Shown here one piece after another: positions 8,430 through 40,580 of a stretch of DNA of 42,682 nucleotides. The notes beneath the pieces are model-generated. The model worked only from the letters and a program-made list of their open reading frames with translations. It had not been told where the DNA came from and did not search any database. Origin of the DNA: a virus; the IMG/VR virus record IMGVR_UViG_3300031576_000122, positions 1 through 42,682 of that record; one strand, written 5' to 3'. The position numbers were made by a program, and so were the translations under genes. Position 1 is the first letter of the stretch; each line of letters opens with the position of its first letter.

Positions 8430-9596
8430 ATGGCAGCGGAACCCGTACCACAGCAAGAAGCACAGCAAGCCGCCCGCGCAGGAGCGGGGGGAGTTGCAGC
8501 GCTCCAAGCGCTCGAGGCTGCGCTCGCGAGCGGGGACCCGCAGCGCATCGTCGGCACGGCGCAGCTGTTCGGCCCGTGGACGGTGCAAGCGGTGCAGGTG
8601 GCACCGGAAGAAGCGCTGGCCGCGATCCGCTCGCGGCTACAGGGCATGGGTATGCAGCCTCAGGACGTGCCCATAAGCGGCCCTGGCACGGGGTTCTTCG
8701 AGCAGGCTGGCGCGGGGCTCCAGGAGGGCCTACCTGGGCTCTACATGACGCCGCTGGCGCTGCCTGGGGCTGCTGCTCCACGAGGGCTGCGTGGAACGGC
8801 TGGGAGGCTCGCAGGGGGCGCTGTGGGGCCAGCCTTGGGGATGGTAGGTGGCAGCCTGATGTTGCGTGCAGCTCGCCCTGCGTCTGTGGCGTTGGCACGG
8901 CTGCTCGCAGGGCTCGGGTTTGGAACTGGCGAAGCTGGCACGGTTGCCGCAGGGCAGGCCATGCAGGGCGTGCCACTCGATCCTACGGCCATTGGTACGG
9001 CCGGCGCTCTAGGAGGGCTTCTGGGCGGTGCTGTAATGGCAAGACCACTCGTAGGTCCAATTCGTGCCGGGAGGGCCGCATTCAGGCAGGCAACGCGTCC
9101 TACGGGCATTCCTCAAGGGGTAGATCCACGGCAGCTCGTAGAAATAGCTGGGCAGGGCGTCTTTCGCCCTCCGCCTGGAATGCGGCCAGTTGGCATGCTC
9201 CGCGGCCCAGGGCCGAGGCTCGCGATGGGAAGGCCCGCCAAGGAGTTCAGGCGTGCGCTCAGGGGCGAGGAACGGGCATTTGTACGCAGGGGGATAGAAG
9301 CTGGGCAGCCAGGGCAGGTCTTTCCTCCCCCTCCGCCTGCGAAGCCCCCGAGGCCCGTGAAGGGGCAAGCTCCTGCGCCAGGCACGCAGCTTGCACCAGG
9401 CACGCAGAACGTATCGCTCACGGGCCAAGCCGTTACCCAGACGCAGGCCCGTCAGCCGATTTCCGCGCGCTTGGTAGCGCTACGAGAGCAAACAGCTGCG
9501 GAGAACCTGCGGCGTACGCGTGCGGCTGCGGATCTGGCCGAGCAGAAGCTCAAAGAACGCCTCAGGAGCGTACCGCCTCCACCGCGGAAGCCGTAA
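8430..9596 (+). CDS. Internal virion protein with glycine-zipper segments
   Basis: 388 aa, Ala/Gly/Pro-rich. The N-terminal third is helical (AGAGGVAALQALEAALASG). Two hydrophobic Gly-rich segments near 140-160 (GPALGMVGGSLMLRAARPA) and 190-205 (AGALGGLLGGAVMARPLVG) look membrane-active. A Pro-rich linker (PPPPPAKPPRP) near 300 leads to a charged helical C-terminus. Fits a podoviral ejection protein. It has its own leader with the 11-bp repeats, so it may be expressed apart from the genes before it. Confidence 0.6.
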   Translation: MAAEPVPQQEAQQAARAGAGGVAALQALEAALASGDPQRIVGTAQLFGPWTVQAVQVAPEEALAAIRSRLQGMGMQPQDVPISGPGTGFFEQAGAGLQEGLPGLYMTPLALPGAAAPRGLRGTAGRLAGGAVGPALGMVGGSLMLRAARPASVALARLLAGLGFGTGEAGTVAAGQAMQGVPLDPTAIGTAGALGGLLGGAVMARPLVGPIRAGRAAFRQATRPTGIPQGVDPRQLVEIAGQGVFRPPPGMRPVGMLRGPGPRLAMGRPAKEFRRALRGEERAFVRRGIEAGQPGQVFPPPPPAKPPRPVKGQAPAPGTQLAPGTQNVSLTGQAVTQTQARQPISARLVALREQTAAENLRRTRAAADLAEQKLKERLRSVPPPPRKP

Positions 9597-9603
9597 GAGA
9601 ATT

Positions 9604-11355
9604 ATGGCAGGCATTGGCCCCATTCTCGGTGCGCTTGGACGGCGGGTCGTAGGCCCGACAGGCGCAGTCGTACGCGAGGCAGCGACCCGTGCCGCGTCCC
9701 GTACGCCGTTTCTGCTCGAAGCGCGCATCCCGCTCCGCGTGCTCCAAGAGCAGGGCGGGGAGCATGGCGTGGCGATCGCCCGCGGGATCGAGAGTGCCCG
9801 GAGCACCGTGGAACGGGACCTTGGCCAGCTGCTCGACGATGTACTGCCTGGCGTGCGGTCGCTCCCGCCCGCGGATGCGCAGGCGTTCGGGAACATCCTG
9901 CGCACGGGTACGGGACCAGCAACGGCATCTGTTGCCCAGATCGTCGCCCGCGCGCAGCCGATCTTCCGCGAGGCAGCAGACGTGACCATCCGCGTAGGCA
10001 ATCAGCGCATGCCTGCCACGCCCGATGCACTCTTTGCCCGCGGGAAGCTCACCGGACGCATCACGGATGCGATTGAGCGTGATCCCGCAGCCCTCTTGAG
10101 CGTGCTTGCGGATGAGGCGACGGATCTTCGGCTCACGCGCCAGCTGCGCGCACTCCGCCCGAACGTGGAGGCGCTCCGTGGCCAGAATCAGGCGCTTGGC
10201 CGGTTCGCGGATACGATCCTGCAGCGGATCGCCACGCCGGCGGAGCCAAGCGAGTTCGCCAGCATGCTGCGGAACGTGAACGTTGCTACGCTGCTCGGAC
10301 GCGCGGTCATCCCGAACCTGTCACAGAGTGCGCTCACGGCATTGACCATCGGCATCCGCCCGACCGTGCGCGCCATCCTGGCCTCAGGAGGCGATGACGC
10401 AGCCCGGTTCGCGCTCAGGTCAGGGGCGATCCTGGAGAGCGTACAGGACGAGCTTCTAGGCGGCTTGGCGCGTAGTACTCCTAGTGAGCGTCGCGCCAGG
10501 TTCGTGCTGCGGGTGACGGGCTTCAACGCGGTCGAGCGCTTCAATCGGCGCGTGGGTGCGGTGGCTGCGCGTGAAGCGTTGCCGGAGCTGATCCGTGGCG
10601 CGGCACGCGGCAACGCTCGCGACCGGGCCATGCTCACACGGTTGGGGCTCGACGCGAACGATCTGCTGGCACGTGGGGGTGCGTTCACGGAGGATGAGGC
10701 GCTGCGCGCGGGCCAGCGGCTCTCTCGCCTGACGCAGTTCCGCGTGACACCAGAGGAGCTGCCAGAGTTCGCCACGCGTGGAGACCTCGGGCGCCTGCTC
10801 TTTCAGTTCAAGGGCTTTGCCGTGAAGGCGTTCGAGCTGATCCGCGACCAGGCGCGCCTTGACCCTGTGGGTACGTTCACTCGCGGTCTCGCGGTGCTGC
10901 CGGCCGCGGGCTTTGCCACACGTGCCGCACAAATCGCTGCAAACAACGCGCTGGCGCTCCGTGACCCTGAGCGCTTCCGGCAGCAGACGATGCGTGATTT
11001 CGAGCGTGCATTCGGGACGAACGTCTTCACCTTTCTCTGGGAGACCGTGCTCTCGGTTGGCGCGCTCGGCATCGTCGGCGACGTGCTCCGCTCTGCCGCG
11101 TTCGGTGTCGAGGGCGTGGCCGAGGCGCTTGGCGGACCCACGTTCAGTCTTGGCGCAGAAGCGGTCGTCGGCGCTGTACAGGCAACGACGCCACGGACGC
11201 GCCGCGGCCCGCTCGGCCCGGCGCCCGTACCCGTACAGGAGCGCCTGCGGCCGCTTGCCAAGCAGGTCGTCCGCCGCATACCTGCCTTCGGTCCCACCGT
11301 GTCACGAGAGCTGTTCCCGCCACGCACGCCGAGATCCCCATTCGGCAGGCTCTAG
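9604..11355 (+). CDS. Large internal virion protein
   Basis: 583 aa from ATG 9604; the open frame upstream of it lies within the previous gene. Mostly helical and Arg/Ala-rich. Notable segments: LGRAVIPNLSQSALTALTIG near 237, TGFNAVERFNRRVGAVAAR near 307 and LGRLLFQFKGFAVKAFELIR near 395, which recall large virion-associated or polyvalent proteins of other podoviruses. A hydrophobic stretch lies near 475-500 (FTFLWETVLSVGALGIVGDV). Largest of the internal protein group, directly before the endolysin. Probably the main ejection-core protein; no lytic motif seen inside it. Confidence 0.55.
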   Translation: MAGIGPILGALGRRVVGPTGAVVREAATRAASRTPFLLEARIPLRVLQEQGGEHGVAIARGIESARSTVERDLGQLLDDVLPGVRSLPPADAQAFGNILRTGTGPATASVAQIVARAQPIFREAADVTIRVGNQRMPATPDALFARGKLTGRITDAIERDPAALLSVLADEATDLRLTRQLRALRPNVEALRGQNQALGRFADTILQRIATPAEPSEFASMLRNVNVATLLGRAVIPNLSQSALTALTIGIRPTVRAILASGGDDAARFALRSGAILESVQDELLGGLARSTPSERRARFVLRVTGFNAVERFNRRVGAVAAREALPELIRGAARGNARDRAMLTRLGLDANDLLARGGAFTEDEALRAGQRLSRLTQFRVTPEELPEFATRGDLGRLLFQFKGFAVKAFELIRDQARLDPVGTFTRGLAVLPAAGFATRAAQIAANNALALRDPERFRQQTMRDFERAFGTNVFTFLWETVLSVGALGIVGDVLRSAAFGVEGVAEALGGPTFSLGAEAVVGAVQATTPRTRRGPLGPAPVPVQERLRPLAKQVVRRIPAFGPTVSRELFPPRTPRSPFGRL

Positions 11356-25716: not shown

Positions 25717-26295
25717 ATGCGGCGGGTCTCGCCACGTCAGCAGCAGCTCTTAGCACTGCTCTGCGCAGGCATGCCGCGTGCCGAGATGGCGCTGGCGCTC
25801 GGCATGCAAGAAAGTTCCGTGCGCAACCTGCAGCGGGAGCTCGCACACTGCATGGGCACCGCAGGACGGCTGACGCGAAGCGCAATCGTGCAACGGGCCG
25901 TGGACATTGGTATAGTCACACAGGACGCCGTGTCGCTGAACGGACCCGCGAATGCGGAAACGATCATGCCACCCTACACAACCGTGCTCATTTGGCGTAC
26001 TGACACGCAGGAACTGACCATAGATGAGCCCTTTTGCCCGAAGTGCGGTGCGGCATATGCTGCGCTGGCGTATGCCGTGGAAGCACGCTTCCCAATCTCC
26101 ATTGAAGATTTGCGCGTCAGCCTTGGCAAGCGGGAAGGGATCGTCCCGCAGTCATTTCCTCCAGGCGGCGTGAGGAATTTCACACTCCTCTGCCCAACAG
26201 GACACGTACGAAAAGCACTGATTCGAGGGCCACGGGCGACGCTCGAAATACCTGGGGATGCAAGCTTGAACGTGCACAGGAGAAGGCAGCTATGA
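25717..26295 (+). CDS. LuxR-type HTH protein with a possible zinc-binding C-terminal domain
   Basis: 192 aa. Residues 4-66 follow the GerE/LuxR helix-turn-helix pattern (VSPRQQQLLALLCAGMPRAE then QESSVRNLQRELAHCMGTAG and RLTRSAIVQRAVDIGIV). After a linker the second domain has CPKC at 107-110 and C159/H163 (CPTGH), a plausible zinc site. No receiver or autoinducer domain. Likely activator or repressor of the rightward operon. It overlaps the terminase small subunit gene by 4 nt (ATGA), so it is co-expressed with packaging. Confidence 0.75.
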   Translation: MRRVSPRQQQLLALLCAGMPRAEMALALGMQESSVRNLQRELAHCMGTAGRLTRSAIVQRAVDIGIVTQDAVSLNGPANAETIMPPYTTVLIWRTDTQELTIDEPFCPKCGAAYAALAYAVEARFPISIEDLRVSLGKREGIVPQSFPPGGVRNFTLLCPTGHVRKALIRGPRATLEIPGDASLNVHRRRQL

Positions 26296-27014
26296 AGACC
26301 ACACCGGCGAACAAGAGCGCGACGCCCCGCGAAGACGTCACCCTCGCAGACCGCGTCACCGCAGATCGGTTCAATCTGGTCGTGGATCGGGAGTATGCCG
26401 CAGCCGCAGCACGCGCCACGCCCGTCTCCGTGCCCTCCCTCTGCGATCGCAGCAAGATCGTCTACGAGGGCGAAGAAGACCGCGGACTCCTCGCACCGGA
26501 CCCAGACAGCATCCACGCGACCCCATCACTCCCCGCATCTGCCGATGCCCGCGTGCTCCTCCTCCTCTTCACCGGGCATACGCCACGTGCCATCAGCGAG
26601 CAGCTCGGGATCAGCCTCGCCCGCGTAACGGCGCTCGCGGACCACCCCACCACGCTTGCTGCCTACCGCACCATGCGCGAGCACATGCGCGAAGACATCC
26701 TCCAGGGCACCCACGGACCCGTTGCCATGGCCCGTGCAGCATCCAACGAAATGCTCGCTGTCATCCTCGGCCATGCCCGCTACAGCGAGCACCCAGAAGT
26801 CAGCCGGAAGAGCGCTATCGACGTGCTCGCCATCGCTGGCTACGGCCCCACACGCAAGGTACAGACCATCAACACGAACGAGTGGTGGTCAAGCATGACC
26901 CCAGCCGAGATCAAGCACTACAACAAGACCCGCGAATGGCCCGCACGGTTTTCCGACTTCATCGTCGCGCCCCGACCCGTCGTCGAACCAGCCAAGAAAG
27001 ACGAGCAGACATAA
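26292..27014 (+). CDS. Terminase small subunit candidate
   Basis: 240 aa. Residues 88-160 contain a helix-turn-helix-like stretch (TGHTPRAISEQLGISLARVT near 94), followed by helices (TMREHMREDILQGT, SRKSAIDVLAIAGYGP). That arrangement and the position just before the large terminase gene fit a small subunit that recognises the packaging site. N- and C-terminal regions are charged. Call by context plus motif. Confidence 0.6.
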   Translation: MKTTPANKSATPREDVTLADRVTADRFNLVVDREYAAAAARATPVSVPSLCDRSKIVYEGEEDRGLLAPDPDSIHATPSLPASADARVLLLLFTGHTPRAISEQLGISLARVTALADHPTTLAAYRTMREHMREDILQGTHGPVAMARAASNEMLAVILGHARYSEHPEVSRKSAIDVLAIAGYGPTRKVQTINTNEWWSSMTPAEIKHYNKTREWPARFSDFIVAPRPVVEPAKKDEQT

Positions 27015-27097: not shown

Positions 27098-27124
27098 GGG
27101 TGGGGCTCTCCATGAGCCCCATCC
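27098..27124 (+). promoter_or_regulatory. Hairpin before the large terminase gene
   Basis: TGGGGCTC and GAGCCCCA form an 8-bp stem with TCCAT as loop; three more pairs (one G-U) extend it to 11. It ends 10 nt before the ATG of the terminase ATPase gene, where no ribosome site is seen. It could lower expression of that gene. It lacks the GGA flank of the 20-nt hairpin family. Confidence 0.45.
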
Positions 27125-27134
27125 GCCTCCGCCC

Positions 27135-27863
27135 ATGACCCGCGCTGGTGACGCGCCCCAATCCGCAGATGACCTCGGCGAAGAAGACGTACTCGAGCTG
27201 CGCTCCCACTTGACGGACGAGCAAGCTGAGAACGTCGAACGCTACACCCCGCACGACCCATCACCCGAGTCCCACGCCCGCGCCGCATGGAACTTCCTCG
27301 CAGAGGCCTGCTGGACGTTTGACCAGATCGAAGGCAAGAAGCGCAAGTTCCCCGCGCACCTCGACTACCTTCACGAGTTGACGAATATGTGGTGCGGGGC
27401 ACGTCTGCTGCTCATTCCCAAATCCAGGCGCATGCTCGTCACCTGGACCATGTGCGCACTCCACTACTGGCTCGCCCGCTTTGGGCACCCCGGTGCCAAA
27501 GTCGCACTCGTCTCCCGTAAAGAGGGCCGCAGCGAATCCGAGGGCAGCGCTGAACTCGTCTGGCGCTGCAAATTCATCCACGACCACGTCCCGCGGAACG
27601 TTGTCGACTGCCCGACTGAATACACGTTCTGCCGGCTCCGGTTCCCGCAAACGAACAGCGAGATCATCGGCGTCGGGCAGGGCGCAGATCAACTGCGCCA
27701 GCACACACTCACCGCCATCTTCGCCGACGAGATGGCGTTCTGGGAATCCGCCCGCGAGACGTACATCGCGAGCCGCCCTACGATCGAGGGCGGGGGGCGC
27801 TTCACAGGCGTCAGCAGCGCGCACCCCGGCTTCTTCAAGATGCTCGTCTACGACGAGATTTAG
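27135..27863 (+). CDS. Terminase large subunit, ATPase half (split gene)
   Basis: 242 aa. It carries the motor half: Walker A-like LLIPKSRRMLVTW at 92-104, Walker B TAIFADEMAFW at 193-203 (D198, E199) and the coupling motif GVSSAHP at 225-231. It stops at TAG right after the ATPase core, with no nuclease domain. The missing nuclease half is encoded at 29197-30003. The upstream region has no recognisable ribosome site (CGCCTCCGCCC before ATG), unlike most neighbours. The two products together have about 510 aa, a normal terminase size, so they probably act as one enzyme in DNA packaging. Confidence 0.85.
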   Translation: MTRAGDAPQSADDLGEEDVLELRSHLTDEQAENVERYTPHDPSPESHARAAWNFLAEACWTFDQIEGKKRKFPAHLDYLHELTNMWCGARLLLIPKSRRMLVTWTMCALHYWLARFGHPGAKVALVSRKEGRSESEGSAELVWRCKFIHDHVPRNVVDCPTEYTFCRLRFPQTNSEIIGVGQGADQLRQHTLTAIFADEMAFWESARETYIASRPTIEGGGRFTGVSSAHPGFFKMLVYDEI

Positions 27864-27882
27864 TTGCCGCTAGTGCGGCAAC
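27863..27882 (+). promoter_or_regulatory. 20-nt hairpin, family member B
   Basis: Arms GTTGCCGC and GCGGCAAC around TAGT; followed by GGAG. The first stem base is the last base of the terminase ATPase stop codon. Member F (31413-31432) shares both arms but has loop TAAT. Confidence 0.75.
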
Positions 27883-27937
27883 GGAGTTACTGTACACGTG
27901 ATATCGTAGACGTATCCACGCTACGAGGGCTCTATGC

Positions 27938-28051
27938 ATGCTTCCCCCCTGGTTCACGCTCCTCGACGAGATCCTCGATCCCGTCGTCACGCTGGCACTC
28001 CTCTGCATCTGCCTGCTCATCCTGCATCGCACGAGGAAGCGCGATGGATGA
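27938..28051 (+). CDS. Small single-pass membrane peptide
   Basis: 37 aa, ATG 27938, with GAGGG upstream. Mostly one hydrophobic helix (PVVTLALLCICLLILHRTRK) followed by a basic tail, so N-out/C-in insertion is expected. Its stop overlaps the next start (ATGGATGA). It resembles mini-holins or regulatory peptides. First gene inside the split terminase. Holin function is only a guess. Confidence 0.5.
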   Translation: MLPPWFTLLDEILDPVVTLALLCICLLILHRTRKRDG

Positions 28052-28349
28052 ATCAGGCGTCTACACCGCGCTGCAGACCATCGTGCAGCTCGTCCAGCTC
28101 ATTGCGGCACCGCTCATTGCCTACGGCGCGTTCATCCTGACCGACATCCGCCGTCAAGTACGCGACATCGGCGAACGCGTCGAAGAACTCGGCGCCGAAG
28201 TCGCCAAAATCAACGGGCGCGTGATCCGCGCAGAGCAGTGGCAGCAGAGCCACGAAGCGTTCGATCAGAGCCAACACGCCCGAACCACCCGCGAGATCGA
28301 GCGCCTGGAGAACATCTTCCGCGGGCGACCTGAGCCCCGCCGGCGGTAG
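28044..28349 (+). CDS. Membrane-anchored coiled-coil protein (second copy type)
   Basis: 101 aa. Membrane helix at about 12-31 (IVQLVQLIAAPLIAYGAFIL) then a charged coiled coil (DIRRQVRDIGERVEELGAEV). Same layout as the protein at 11752-12051 in the lysis cluster, though the sequences differ. Could be a spanin-type or membrane scaffold. Overlaps the preceding peptide gene by 8 nt. Confidence 0.6.
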   Translation: MDESGVYTALQTIVQLVQLIAAPLIAYGAFILTDIRRQVRDIGERVEELGAEVAKINGRVIRAEQWQQSHEAFDQSQHARTTREIERLENIFRGRPEPRRR

Positions 28350-28354
28350 TTTTG

Positions 28355-28374
28355 TTTGCTGCTTCCGCAGCAAA
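28355..28374 (+). promoter_or_regulatory. 20-nt hairpin, family member C
   Basis: Arms TTTGCTGC and GCAGCAAA around TTCC, 5 nt after the stop of the coiled-coil gene, preceded by TTTTG and followed by GGGC. It departs from the TAGT loop and GGA flank but keeps 8+4+8 geometry. Confidence 0.65.
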
Positions 28375-28405
28375 GGGCGGCGTATCGCGCTGCTCCCGTA
28401 ACCCC

Positions 28406-28434
28406 TTTGCACTCCCCGCATCTCATGCTATGCT
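28406..28434 (+). promoter_or_regulatory. Candidate rightward promoter inside the split terminase
   Basis: TTTGCA and TATGCT at 17-nt spacing, with TGC before the -10 (extended -10 feature). It lies 60 nt before the gene at 28496. If real, it would drive the two small genes and the nuclease half of the terminase separately from the ATPase half. Confidence 0.5.
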
Positions 28435-28450
28435 CGCCCTGGGTGGGAAG

Positions 28451-28495
28451 ATAGCATAGCACATAGCTAGCGTAGCGCATAGCTAGGAGCGTAGC
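28451..28495. repeat. TAGC/CATAGC tandem leader repeat
   Basis: Two longer units that begin TAGC(A/G)CATAGCTAG, at 28457 and 28473 (16-nt period), plus shorter TAGCAT copies at both ends. They fill the leader between the promoter candidate and the ATG at 28496, which has AGGAG at 28485-28489. Same leader style as 8361-8404 and 28817-28865. Confidence 0.5.
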
Positions 28496-28816
28496 ATGCC
28501 AGCAGTTCTCAGCTCTACCGGAACGTGGACGGCGTTGAATAGTCCGAACACGGGCATGTCCCGCGCCACGCACGACAACGTACCCGGCATGGCCAATATC
28601 CATTCTGGGACCAGCACGGGCGAGTTCGGGAACATCTCGGATGAGACGCTGCAGTTTCTCGGCATGATGGCGAATGCGCTCGGCCTGCACTTCTGGCAAG
28701 CGCATGCCATCGTCATGGCTGAGCTGACAGCGCTCCGCAGCTACGGAGCGCCATCGCGAAAGGATGAGTCGGGCGCGCTCGCGCCCATTGGATCTGGCAC
28801 GGCCGTGCTCGCGTAA
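28496..28816 (+). CDS. Hypothetical protein inside the split terminase (1)
   Basis: 106 aa. AGGAG lies 6 nt upstream. The N-terminus is Ser/Thr/Asn-rich (LSSTGTWTALNSPNTGMSRA), with a central helix (ETLQFLGMMANALGLHFWQA) and a helix near 72 (HAIVMAELTALRSYG). No signal peptide or catalytic motif. Probably a small structural or assembly protein. No family recognised. Confidence 0.55.
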   Translation: MPAVLSSTGTWTALNSPNTGMSRATHDNVPGMANIHSGTSTGEFGNISDETLQFLGMMANALGLHFWQAHAIVMAELTALRSYGAPSRKDESGALAPIGSGTAVLA

Positions 28817-28865
28817 ACGAGTACGCAGACGAGTAGTATGTTCGTATTTGTACATTCGTAGCATG
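28817..28865. repeat. ACGAGTA/TTCGTA leader repeat
   Basis: ACGAGTACGCAG, ACGAGTAGTATG, TTCGTATTTGTAC and ATTCGTAGCATG follow each other. They lie between the stop at 28816 and the ribosome site AGGGAGG of the next gene. Period about 12-13 nt. Together with the 8361 and 28451 blocks this makes a third tandem-repeat leader before a rightward gene. Confidence 0.45.
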
Positions 28866-28879
28866 CAGGGAGGTTCATC

Positions 28880-29188
28880 ATGGCATTCACAGTGACGCTG
28901 ACAGGTGGTCCGAAGGATGCGCTCGCTGTCAACCAGCGTGACGCGGGACGAACCGTGCTGCAGGATGCAGCCTACGGCCAAACCGACCTCGACTACGAGA
29001 ACCAGGTCAGCACGCTCGGAAGCCAGGAGATGGTGAGCGAAGTGCATCAGTTCATTCAGGAGATGACGCGTGGCTACGGTGTGCAGGACGTGAACCTTGC
29101 CGGTGCCATTTTCACGCCGCGAGCCATCATCACGCGGATCCACGCGATCACGAGCGGGATGCTCCGTGACTCCCGACGCGTCGCGTAG
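28880..29188 (+). CDS. Hypothetical protein inside the split terminase (2)
   Basis: 102 aa; AGGGAGG precedes the ATG. The N-terminus is beta-like (AFTVTLTGGPKDALAVNQRD), the middle helical (SQEMVSEVHQFIQEMTRGYG). No family recognised. Its stop is 8 nt before the nuclease half of the terminase, so the two are probably translated together. Confidence 0.55.
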   Translation: MAFTVTLTGGPKDALAVNQRDAGRTVLQDAAYGQTDLDYENQVSTLGSQEMVSEVHQFIQEMTRGYGVQDVNLAGAIFTPRAIITRIHAITSGMLRDSRRVA

Positions 29189-29196
29189 CATGTCCC

Positions 29197-30003
29197 ATGG
29201 ACGGGTTCCGCCTCTGGCACAACCCGCGGAACAACTTCGATGTCCTGCGTCTGCACTACCTGGCCGATCCGCGGAAGCGGACCAACGCCTGGCTCAGCGA
29301 CGCGAGAGCGGGCATGCCGTCCCGCGGCTGGCGGCGCGAGTACGAGATCGACTGGACGGCACCCGAGGGCGATCCGGTCATTCCCGAGTACGCAGCGTCC
29401 ATCCACTGCGTGGAGATTTCCGCCCGCGAGGTGCGATTGCTCCGCGGATGGGACTTCGGCTTCGTCACGCCTGCCGTGGTCTTCTGCCAGCTCGACACAT
29501 ACGGCCGCCTCCTCGTGCTCGCCGAATGCGTCCCCTTCAACGTGCCGTTGGATGACCTGGTAGACATGGTCCGTGCCCAGACGGCAGAGCTTGTCGGTAC
29601 GCACACACCCGTGTTCGATGCGGGCGACCCGGCTGCGGATAACACGACGGATCTCGGGAACGTGCAGCAGGTGCTCCGCCAGAAGGGCATCATGCTGCAC
29701 ACGCACCGCCCCGGCACGGATTTGAGCTACCAGTCGCTCCGTCACCGGTTCCTCGACCGCGTACTCATCCCTGGCGAAGGACAGCAGCCGCGGATTCTCA
29801 TCCATCCGCGCTGCCATCACCTGAACGAAGCGCTCGCGGGCGCGTTCCACTTGAGCACGCACCCGCCATACAAGCCCGTCAAGCTTCATCCGTACAAGGA
29901 CGTGGTGGATGCACTCCGCTACCTGCACGACAACCTGAGCGCGGTGACGGGAGAGTACCGAGCGAAGATGCAGAAGATGGCCACGGCAGATTGCGTCTGG
30001 TAA
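29197..30003 (+). CDS. Terminase large subunit, nuclease half (split gene)
   Basis: 268 aa. RNase H-like nuclease: GWDFGFVTP at 84-92 (D86), FDAGDPAA at 140-147 and HPYKDVVDALRYL at 231-243. The N-terminus (MDGFRLWHNPRNNFDVLRLH) is the linker normally found right after the ATPase core in a one-piece terminase. No ribosome site before ATG 29197, so expression may depend on coupling to the previous stop. It cuts concatemeric DNA during packaging, in complex with the ATPase half. Confidence 0.85.
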   Translation: MDGFRLWHNPRNNFDVLRLHYLADPRKRTNAWLSDARAGMPSRGWRREYEIDWTAPEGDPVIPEYAASIHCVEISAREVRLLRGWDFGFVTPAVVFCQLDTYGRLLVLAECVPFNVPLDDLVDMVRAQTAELVGTHTPVFDAGDPAADNTTDLGNVQQVLRQKGIMLHTHRPGTDLSYQSLRHRFLDRVLIPGEGQQPRILIHPRCHHLNEALAGAFHLSTHPPYKPVKLHPYKDVVDALRYLHDNLSAVTGEYRAKMQKMATADCVW

Positions 30004-36928: not shown

Positions 36929-37876
36929 ATGAACGCGCTTACCATGGTTCTCATGGGCTTCTGGTTCGTGCCGCCCGCGGCGATCAAGGTGGAGCACGTG
37001 CGGGCACCGCTCGTGGAGCTGGCGCAGAACTATGGCAGCGGGCTGCCCCATCTGTGGAGCATACAGGGCTTGACCACGCCACCAGATGAGTCCGCGTTGT
37101 TCGTGGCAATCTGGTCCTTGAATGAAGCGTCTGGGACGCGAGCAAATCGGACGGGCACGACGTGTGCGGCAGATACATCGTGCGATCTCACGGAATCTGC
37201 AGGCGATACGGTCGTCAACAGCACGACGAACGTTCGTGAAGGTACCGCGTCAGCCAGTTTCGTGCGCGCGGACAACGAATGGCTGCAATGTACGGATGCG
37301 ACCTGCAACGAGTTAGATACGACGGGGAGCATGTCGTGGGGCTTCTGGCTCCGCCCGCAATCAACGGGCATTCAGCATAACACGATGGTTAGTCTCGACG
37401 CGAGTGCCACGGATGGGTGGTACAGTCTCATCACGACGACCAATCTGCACCAATGCTTCGGGAGCGCAGTCCTGGTGGACAGCTTTTCGCTCAACTCGAC
37501 GAGTACGATCACGGCGAACACGTTCATGCACGGGGCGTGCACGTTTGATGAGCCAGCCGACACGGCGCGCAACTACTTCAATGCCATCAACGAGGCATCG
37601 GACACCGCGTTTACGGGCAATCTTGACGACGCTAACCAATTTGACATTGGCAACTGGAATCTCAGCAACAATGGTGTGGATGGGCAAGTGGATGAGGCCT
37701 TCGTGATCTTCCAGGCGCTCTCGGCCGCGGAGGTGTGCCACATCTGTTCCTGTCAGATTGACGGCACCCGTGGGCAGTGCCGCTGTGATGGGACAGCGTA
37801 CTTCGATCGAGGGCTGAATGTATCCAACTGCGGGACTTGTACGTTGCCGGCAAGTTGTGCTGATCCCATAAGCTGA
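36929..37876 (+). CDS. Exported LamG-like (concanavalin fold) protein
   Basis: 315 aa; GAGAGG upstream. N-terminus [18 protein letters not shown] is hydrophobic and could export it. Residues 60-280 show a laminin-G/concanavalin pattern: [14 protein letters not shown], then [30 protein letters not shown] and [17 protein letters not shown]. Such folds bind carbohydrate. The C-terminus has a Cys-rich segment ([17 protein letters not shown]). Likely receptor- or surface-binding. Confidence 0.7.
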
Positions 37877-38414: not shown

Positions 38415-40580
38415 ATGGCCTCGCACACACTCTTCCCGAACCGTGCCCGCGAGCTGCCCGTGCAGGAGAAGATCGAGCGCGATCTGCTGCCCGCACTCTC
38501 CCGCATCCGTACCGAGCGCGCGATCATGCGCGAGCGCTGGCTGCGGTACTACCGCATCTTCGATTCCACGCCCGACCAAGAACGCTACCATGGCCGCATC
38601 CAGAGCTACATTCCCGTTGGCCGCCGCCTGATTGAGAATTGGGTGCAGAAGGTCAAGCGGGACCTCTTCCCGACCGATGACGTGTTCGGGGTCGAGGCGC
38701 TTCGCGATAGCGATCGCGACCGCGCGCTGGCCGCGAAAGCTCTCCTGCGCACGTTCTTCGAGAAGTACACGCAGGTGCGCCGCCAGTCCACGCCGTTCCT
38801 GCGCCAGCTCGTCACCTATGGCAGCTCTCCCGTGCACGTCACGTGGAAGTTTGATCAGTGCACGCTCGACGTGTTGGAGAACGTGCTCGAAGATGGCCGC
38901 GTGACAGAAAAGACGGTGAAGCGCCAGCGCGAACTGATCCGCTACATCGGCCCGACATTCCGCGTCGTGGATCTGTTTGCCTGGTATGCCTGGCCAGTGA
39001 CCGTAACGAATGTGCTCGATCTCTCACTCATGTTCGAGGACATGCTGATCGAACGCCAGCGGGTACTCGATCTTGCACGCACGCCCATCTCCGCGAAGCG
39101 TCCCGAACTGGGCATGCAGTGGGAGAATGCCGACCGCGTGCTCGAATCCATGGCCAAGGCCGCGGAAGCAGCACAGGCGTCTTCTACGCGTGACGCGAAG
39201 GACAAATTCAACGCACTCCGCCGCCGGCTCAACGACAAGGGCTTCACGATGCGCTTCGAAGGGAGCGATCCCGCACGCGTGACGGATGTAACGGATGTCT
39301 ACTGGCGTACGCGGTTCGAGGATGACGACTGCGTTGACTGGTGGCGGGTCACGATCGCGCAGGACGACGTTCCCGTCCGTGTGCAGCGGAACCCGTTCTG
39401 GCACGGGATGCCTCCGTGGCTCTGCGGCAAGTTTGTGGAAGTGCAAAACGAGTTCTACGGCCGCGGACTGCCCGAGACGTTCGATCGACTGCAGTACTTT
39501 CTGAACGACGTGGCCAATCAGGCGTCGGACGCGCTCGTCTGGAGCATGAATCCCATTGCCGTGGTGGACTCGTACCGCGTGCAGGACGTGGACTCGATCC
39601 GCATGCGCCCCGGTGCCCGTTGGCTCGCCGATCCTGCTGGCGTGAGTTTCACCGAACCCCCGAAGGAGAGTGCGACTGTAGGCTTTGCCGCGGTCGGGCA
39701 GATCATTGCCCTCATGAACGATACGGCGAACGTCGCGCCGTTCCTCGGCCCCAGTCCCGCGGGCAAGGGGCGCGGACGTGCTGCGAGCACAGCCACGGGC
39801 GCGCAGATCCTACTCAGCGAGTCGCTCCTGCAAATTCGGGACGTGGTAGAAAACTTGGAAGATCAGGTCTACACGCCGTTTCTGCGCATGTCGCATGCCC
39901 TTGCCATGCAGTGCATGTCGAAGGCCATGATCTTGAAGGTTACGGGCATCGAGGGCGTGTCGTTCGTCGAGCGGCGCATCTCTCCAGAGGACATTGCGGG
40001 TGACTTCGAGTTCCGCTGGCTCGGCAGCACGACCAACGTGAACCATCAGGTGCGGGCGCAGCAGATGGTGAACTTCCTGCAGATGGTTGCCCGCATCCCG
40101 CCTGAGGTCCTGCAGGCGCAGGGCATTCAGATTGACTTGGGTTTTATCCTGCGCGCGATCTGGGAAGATGGATTCTCGCTGCGGGACGGGGACCGCATCA
40201 TCAAGAACACGAATCAGGTGAAGGCCATCGATGCCCGCATCGAGAATGACCTCTTCCGTGCAGGACGTGGCGCGGAAGTAGACGTCTCACCCATCGACGA
40301 TGACCGCCAGCATATCGAGATTCATCGCGACCTGCTCTTTGATCGAAAGCTCGATGAACAGGCCCGCGTGGACGTGGCCGCGCACATTCAGGCGCACGTG
40401 GCCGCAGCGATGGCCAAAGTCATCATGCAGCAGCAGGCCGAGCAGCAGCAGATGCTGGCCGCGCCCAACGGAAGTACGCCGGGTGTGCCCGCACCAGCGA
40501 ACCCAGGACGCCCCGACCAGAGCACGGGTTTCGATGAGCTCTTGCGCGGGCTCCCGCGTGGGGGTATGGGAGGGACGTGA
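38415..40580 (+). CDS. Portal protein
   Basis: 721 aa, the size of SU10/N4-like portals. The N-terminus is helical (KIERDLLPALSRIRTERAIM) then SYIPVGRRLIENWVQKVKRD, followed by the wing and stem domains with WRVTIAQDDVPVRVQRNPFW near 310 and YGRGLPETFDRLQYFLNDVA near 350. QILLSESLLQIRDVVENLED near 465 fits the crown region. The C-terminus is Gln/Pro-rich. Forms the head vertex that carries the packaging motor; adaptor and nozzle genes lie in the same layout downstream in the circle. Confidence 0.85.
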   Translation: MASHTLFPNRARELPVQEKIERDLLPALSRIRTERAIMRERWLRYYRIFDSTPDQERYHGRIQSYIPVGRRLIENWVQKVKRDLFPTDDVFGVEALRDSDRDRALAAKALLRTFFEKYTQVRRQSTPFLRQLVTYGSSPVHVTWKFDQCTLDVLENVLEDGRVTEKTVKRQRELIRYIGPTFRVVDLFAWYAWPVTVTNVLDLSLMFEDMLIERQRVLDLARTPISAKRPELGMQWENADRVLESMAKAAEAAQASSTRDAKDKFNALRRRLNDKGFTMRFEGSDPARVTDVTDVYWRTRFEDDDCVDWWRVTIAQDDVPVRVQRNPFWHGMPPWLCGKFVEVQNEFYGRGLPETFDRLQYFLNDVANQASDALVWSMNPIAVVDSYRVQDVDSIRMRPGARWLADPAGVSFTEPPKESATVGFAAVGQIIALMNDTANVAPFLGPSPAGKGRGRAASTATGAQILLSESLLQIRDVVENLEDQVYTPFLRMSHALAMQCMSKAMILKVTGIEGVSFVERRISPEDIAGDFEFRWLGSTTNVNHQVRAQQMVNFLQMVARIPPEVLQAQGIQIDLGFILRAIWEDGFSLRDGDRIIKNTNQVKAIDARIENDLFRAGRGAEVDVSPIDDDRQHIEIHRDLLFDRKLDEQARVDVAAHIQAHVAAAMAKVIMQQQAEQQQMLAAPNGSTPGVPAPANPGRPDQSTGFDELLRGLPRGGMGGT

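Follow-up and report, generated by a model that had tools for sequence, protein, structure and literature searches.

A putative two-polypeptide large terminase divided between ATPase core and lid in a podovirus-like metagenome contig

The stretch analysed here (the window) is the 42,682-bp IMG/VR virus record IMGVR_UViG_3300031576_000122, a single metagenome contig with podovirus-like gene content. Its plus strand carries the two catalytic domains of a large terminase (TerL) in two open reading frames (ORFs), a 242-aa ATPase at 27135-27863 and a 268-aa nuclease at 29197-30003, and the two are 1,333 bp apart. A preliminary description of this DNA had given both coordinates and both lengths exactly. 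By homology the two proteins are predicted to function jointly, and we take them together to be the large terminase. With a probability of about 0.83, the terminase is of two polypeptides, in which the nuclease protein brings the lid subdomain to complete the ATPase site in trans; the two genes would flank a region of accessory genes. What the analysis shows is that the terminase is split, at a conserved position and in many relatives, and that the two genes are independent. The two parts are named TerL parts by their homology and are not a canonical TerL, in which ATPase and nuclease share one polypeptide.

The two terminase genes and the position of the break

The ATPase protein is an ASCE (additional strand, conserved glutamate) ATPase core with a deviant Walker A motif (PKSRRMLVTW), a form that is allowed in TerL, a Walker B motif (IFADE) and a coupling motif (VSSA). 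All three are invariant in alignments of its relatives. The window protein alone has no match in PHROG or Pfam. A profile of this half with 12 relatives aligns with residues 163-314 of T4 gp17 at E values of 6e-4 to 0.013, and the relatives match terminase PHROGs. The ORF ends just past the motor core, as the preliminary description had it, and the same holds for nearly all split relatives, where the stop lies 0-15 residues past the core.

The nuclease protein matches terminase phrog_2 (E 2.6e-4). It has an RNase H-like nuclease domain, and its acidic residues D86, D141, D144, D235 and D238 are invariant in the alignment of relatives. Its AlphaFold model, with a predicted local distance difference test (pLDDT) score of 72.6, finds the TerL of D6E in Foldseek (E 4e-7) and fits it with a Z score of 18.7 over 172 residues. 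The structural matches that follow are the P22, SPP1, G20c and HK97 terminases, all of them terminase nucleases. The earlier identification of the halves as terminase ATPase and nuclease is borne out by the match of the ATPase profile to T4 gp17 and those of the nuclease to phrog_2 and D6E TerL. A full-length terminase elsewhere, which the preliminary description had raised as a counter-explanation, does not occur in the record; the profile of each half matches the window once and no intact TerL was found.

The alignment with D6E TerL places the break precisely. The ATPase part ends at D6E residue 187 and the nuclease part begins at residue 188. Seven fused relatives (L076, L080, L100, L112, L116, L173 and L194) align across the break and have a variable stretch of 17-25 residues between core and lid. 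In D6E TerL the linker comprises residues 230-241, and the lid residues Y213, M216 and R224 precede it (PMC5727402). Residues 54-250 of the nuclease model fit D6E residues 232-417 with the same Z of 18.7, residue 54 being equivalent to D6E 232. Because the break falls at 187|188, with the lid residues and the linker beyond it, and the model aligns from residue 54, alignment and model assign residues 1-53 of the nuclease protein to the position of the lid subdomain and residues 54-268 to the RNase H-like nuclease. The cut is thereby placed between ATPase core and lid. A motif conserved in the lid reads REYEI. The preliminary description had the nuclease half start with the linker; this stretch is more than a linker and corresponds to the ATPase lid subdomain.

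In one-chain terminases the lid couples the ATP site to the nuclease, and motor models treat core, lid and nuclease as moving parts of a single chain. In solved TerL structures the lid packs on the ATP site (PMC5727402). With the lid on the nuclease protein, a working ATP site should therefore be built from two chains. Two genes would each encode one polypeptide of the large terminase, with protein 1 (27135-27863) supplying the ATPase core and protein 2 (29197-30003) the lid followed by the nuclease. Both proteins would associate at the portal, where the lid of protein 2 would close in trans on the ATP site of protein 1. ATP hydrolysis would then drive the movement of lid and nuclease as in a one-chain TerL.

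Neither terminase start (27135 and 29197) has a Shine-Dalgarno sequence in the window, while AGGAG and GGGAGG stand before the genes at 28496 and 28880, in agreement with the preliminary description. At the 5' end of the ATPase gene lies an 8-codon ORF (27112-27138, plus strand) whose TGA overlaps the ATPase start codon in the sequence ATGA, and which we read as a putative leader. The nuclease start is 8 nt past the stop of the 28880 gene, and in most relatives it lies about -11 to +13 nt from the preceding stop. Translational coupling to the preceding gene could replace the missing ribosome site at both terminase starts. The nuclease start overlaps or closely trails the stop before it, and translation of the nuclease probably depends on coupling to the gene immediately ahead, whichever that is, with the caveat that in GC-rich DNA some of the ORFs ahead may not be real genes. 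The best cases for coupling are those with a recognised homologue in that position, namely the window, L044, L026, L036, L017 and L038.

Spread of the split and rival explanations

IMG/VR was searched with each half separately, for a close group and then for a broad group, and all loci were scored with both profiles. Near-copies were removed at 95% identity, five opposite-strand loci were added and one locus from a genome collection was included. Among 93 distinct terminases with both domains, 81 are two ORFs split at the same point and 12 are one ORF. The searches began from split proteins and each scan retained the best 80 loci, so the ratio of 81:12 is biased and is not a census. The contigs are independent, and the split is not the assembly artefact that the preliminary description had named as a possible refutation. 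In same-strand relatives the distance from ATPase stop to nuclease match ranges from -8 nt to 7,429 nt, with 20 loci below 100 nt and 21 above 1.3 kb. Where the two genes are adjacent, the start codon of the nuclease gene frequently touches or overlaps the ATPase stop (ATGA, TAATG), in a reading frame that varies among phages; these junctions read as ordinary operon overlap. A programmed frameshift was rejected, given that adjacent relatives differ in frame with overlapping start codons and that the window parts are 1.3 kb apart.

The window belongs to a clade of 19 members, all split, with support by the Shimodaira-Hasegawa-like approximate likelihood ratio test of 95 (ATPase tree) and 99 (nuclease tree). 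In six contigs, drawn from five metagenomes and placed inside this clade by both trees, the ATPase and nuclease genes stand on opposite strands, 4.7-10.9 kb apart. A cis-spliced intron is therefore impossible and two proteins are made, at least in those six relatives. Both parts are under purifying selection, with a ratio of nonsynonymous to synonymous rates (dN/dS) of about 0.04-0.08 for the ATPase and 0.10-0.23 for the nuclease (dS is near saturation in several pairs), and the catalytic residues of both are invariant among the relatives aligned. On the unrooted ATPase tree a single transition between split and fused forms is rejected (approximately unbiased test, p 0.0003). By this tree, splitting and/or re-fusion has occurred more than once. 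A methionine stands exactly at the split-nuclease start position in five of six fused relatives (L076, L100, L112, L116 and L173), a hint that some fused forms derive from split ones; alternatively, such fused forms may use it as an internal start. The comparisons describe the split as an old and widespread trait of a large terminase group and not a one-off insertion in the window phage. A scan of bacterial and archaeal genomes gave one relative, an adjacent split terminase (L053, 9135-10444) in a Nitrospirota metagenome-assembled genome contig, with frameshifts in the nuclease. It is probably a decaying prophage and gives a hint to the hosts of distant relatives.

The search also turned up other departures from a simple gene pair. 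The separate nuclease genes of three distant relatives (L030:2548-4431, L031:3247-5205 and L067:886-2724) contain full inteins within the nuclease domain (Pfam Intein_splicing / HINT). In several contigs (L153/L154:5788-6738, L166, L198 and L204) the ATPase profile match stops at profile position 134, which suggests a further interruption inside the ATPase gene, by an intein, an intron or a frameshift. The separate nuclease protein of L029 (1480-2760) has an N-terminal extension of about 100 aa resembling a helix-turn-helix (GRVLAEIIGVSDRTIRNYKRRM) with no Pfam match; this may be a DNA-binding domain attached to the nuclease.

An RNA intron, self-splicing or other, from which one joined TerL is made, has precedents. 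Group I introns split terL in Jug phages, where RNA reads show the joined fragments (PMC12363816), and the intron of herpesvirus UL15 contains UL16 and UL17, so that a packaging ATPase/nuclease gene is interrupted by other virion or packaging genes (PMC3079670). In UL15, eukaryotic splicing joins the exons and the genes inside the intron point the other way, whereas the window has two independent phage genes on the same strand. Jug inserts commonly carry endonucleases; no homing endonuclease is recognised here, and Rfam gives no group I or II match at the gathering score (seven loci) or at E <= 5 (window insert), in agreement with the preliminary description, which saw no self-splicing signature. 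The inserts range from 0.7 to 7.4 kb and are composed of genes. The nuclease ORF begins with a start codon of its own, and relatives show a conserved N-terminus proper to the nuclease protein. Together with the six relatives whose halves lie on opposite strands, this makes an intron very improbable. Hardly credible is a fractured gene, with a split intein ligating the two proteins post-translationally. Full inteins do occur in the nuclease genes of the three distant relatives, but no N- or C-intein pieces were found at the two split edges. The 0-15 residues past the ATPase core leave no space for an N-intein, and the extra nuclease N-terminus is about 0-30 aa in the close relatives of the window, without an intein C-terminal motif. 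Equally little credit can be given to an assembly error or a terminase pseudogene. The window is a single contig, but the same split is seen in dozens of independent ones, and in relatives both parts are under strong purifying selection and keep their catalytic residues.

Two functionally separate enzymes that form no complex, the ATPase a lone motor and the nuclease a cutter of concatemers, would fit the separate genes, which in one subclade stand far apart on different strands. It is an unlikely reading, though less so than those above: the nuclease protein carries a lid that in solved TerL packs on the ATP site (PMC5727402) and would be useless without an ATPase core. The earlier proposal of two products working as one enzyme is supported as a reading, with joint function suggested by homology. 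The accompanying proposal of a cassette insertion holds in preferring a gene-level split to an intron, given overlapping and opposite-strand relatives, no Rfam intron and no intein at the edges, but neither a one-off insertion nor a generic cassette describes the data. The insert is not a generic cassette because same-strand clade members always hold one or two copies of one paralogous family in it. A further possibility, tentative and clearly behind the two-polypeptide terminase with an accessory region, is an obligate multi-protein motor with the ATP site across two chains, where the paralogous pair (28496 and 28880) would encode dedicated accessory subunits for packaging, bridging or regulating the halves, and the 'insert' would be part of a terminase operon, not cargo.

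Several points weigh against the two-polypeptide terminase. The interaction of the two proteins and the completion of the ATP site in trans are derived from structures of one-chain homologues. In the window both genes share one strand, and what excludes an undescribed intron there is solely the comparison with relatives and the absence of matches. Nuclease residues 1-57 are modelled with low confidence (pLDDT block means 42-63); a lid dependent on its partner could look like this, but the low scores do not prove one.

Comparison with known terminases

TerL is treated as one conserved protein and is a widely used marker of tailed phages. The one-chain TerL of D6E, T4 gp17 and BcepC6B have the same two domains, order and catalytic motifs as the window pair; they are single polypeptides (D6E 427 aa, BcepC6B 473 aa), while the window has two. 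Two-gene terminases are already known. In most Arthrobacter cluster AY phages ATPase and nuclease are in two consecutive genes (PMC11920828), and BillyTP of this cluster (PP978841) resembles the window in having the two TerL domains in two genes, with the small subunit before and the portal after them. The BillyTP genes (600-1679 and 1663-2259) overlap by 17 nt, whereas 1.3 kb and four genes lie between those of the window. BillyTP appears from its sequence to be cut after the lid, its ATPase protein retaining a lid-like stretch (359 + 198 aa), and the window is cut before the lid (242 + 268 aa). With the lid on the nuclease protein and four genes intervening, the window split is not of the cluster AY type. 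What sets the group apart is the cut between core and lid, the intervening genes and, in some relatives, the opposite strands; no description of a terminase cut at this point with genes between or on opposite strands was found in the open-licence literature.

Mixing the two proteins would allow core-lid coupling to be tested in a naturally divided motor. The split is also a warning for annotation. Each part alone is near or below detection; such phages may look as if they had no terminase, and searches with full-length TerL miss them.

Genes between the halves and genome context

All four ORFs that the preliminary description had listed between the halves are present, on the plus strand. A 37-aa peptide (27938-28051), read from its sequence as a membrane peptide, overlaps the next gene, which encodes a 101-aa protein (28044-28349) with one membrane segment, a coiled coil and a putative holin-like topology. 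The 101-aa protein has no confident family in PHROG or Pfam, and inserts of relatives hold proteins of similar topology. The remaining two genes, PAR-a (28496-28816; family profile E 1.5e-24) and PAR-b (28880-29188; E 2.5e-19), the latter immediately 5' of the nuclease gene, are aligned copies of one paralogous family of about 100 aa, whose consensus begins MAATITATGTWT.

The paralogous family is found between the halves in all 13 same-strand members of the window clade, in at least one and usually two copies. In the fetched DNA it occurs solely between the halves, or beside one half in truncated contigs, and none was detected around the nuclease gene in opposite-strand members. It has no confident Pfam or PHROG match, and its AlphaFold model is poor (pLDDT 66, predicted template modelling score 0.50). 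The smallest clade insert, about 720 bp in L079, is the paralogous pair and nothing else. The larger inserts also encode small membrane proteins, collagen-like and Laminin_G_3 proteins and a weakly GH19-like protein (E 2e-5, slightly short of the Pfam cut-off). A break that tolerates insertion would have opened the space between the halves to accessory genes, with the paralogous pair as the smallest content and membrane, lysis-like and adhesin-like genes gained in larger inserts. Accessory genes appear to move between the insert and the region outside it, since the window has a Laminin_G_3 (ConA-like) gene at 36929-37876, outside its insert, whose homologues in L016 and L017 are inside theirs.

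Of the two 20-nt hairpins claimed earlier, the one directly 3' of the ATPase stop (27863-27882, plus strand) is strong, with a fold z of -4.5 and no T-run; the other (28355-28374) is no better than shuffles over the folded stretch (z -0.5). The tandem-repeat leader was located at 28449-28480, within the plus-strand leader of the 28496 gene (28425-28497), where direct repeats lie inside an inverted repeat that reaches the start codon. The promoter candidate found no support, as a sigma-70 search of the insert gave 0 sites against 0.7 expected. The 9-mer CGTAGCATG has exactly four copies in the window, and three of them (28490-28498, 28857-28865 and 29184-29192) lie on or shortly ahead of the starts of PAR-a, PAR-b and the nuclease gene.

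BLASTN of the terminase region against phage records gave no match. With tblastn there were weak matches, and those checked by annotation are one-chain TerL. Elsewhere in the window, DNA polymerase and primase genes are on the minus strand, and an internal virion protein with an endolysin domain is at 9520-11355. The major head protein (75-1409; phrog_1357, E 1.7e-36) and the portal or head-tail connector (38415-40580; phrog_332, E 5.7e-20, and phrog_1216, E 5.3e-15) are on the plus strand, and the portal gene lies 3' of the nuclease gene in relatives. A candidate terminase small subunit (TerS; 26292-27014, plus strand) matches the TerS family phrog_2538 (E 0.002), and a homologue stands directly 5' of the ATPase gene in most relatives with a long enough contig. 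The order TerS, ATPase, insert, nuclease, variable region, portal and major head protein is constant in same-strand relatives whose contigs are long enough.

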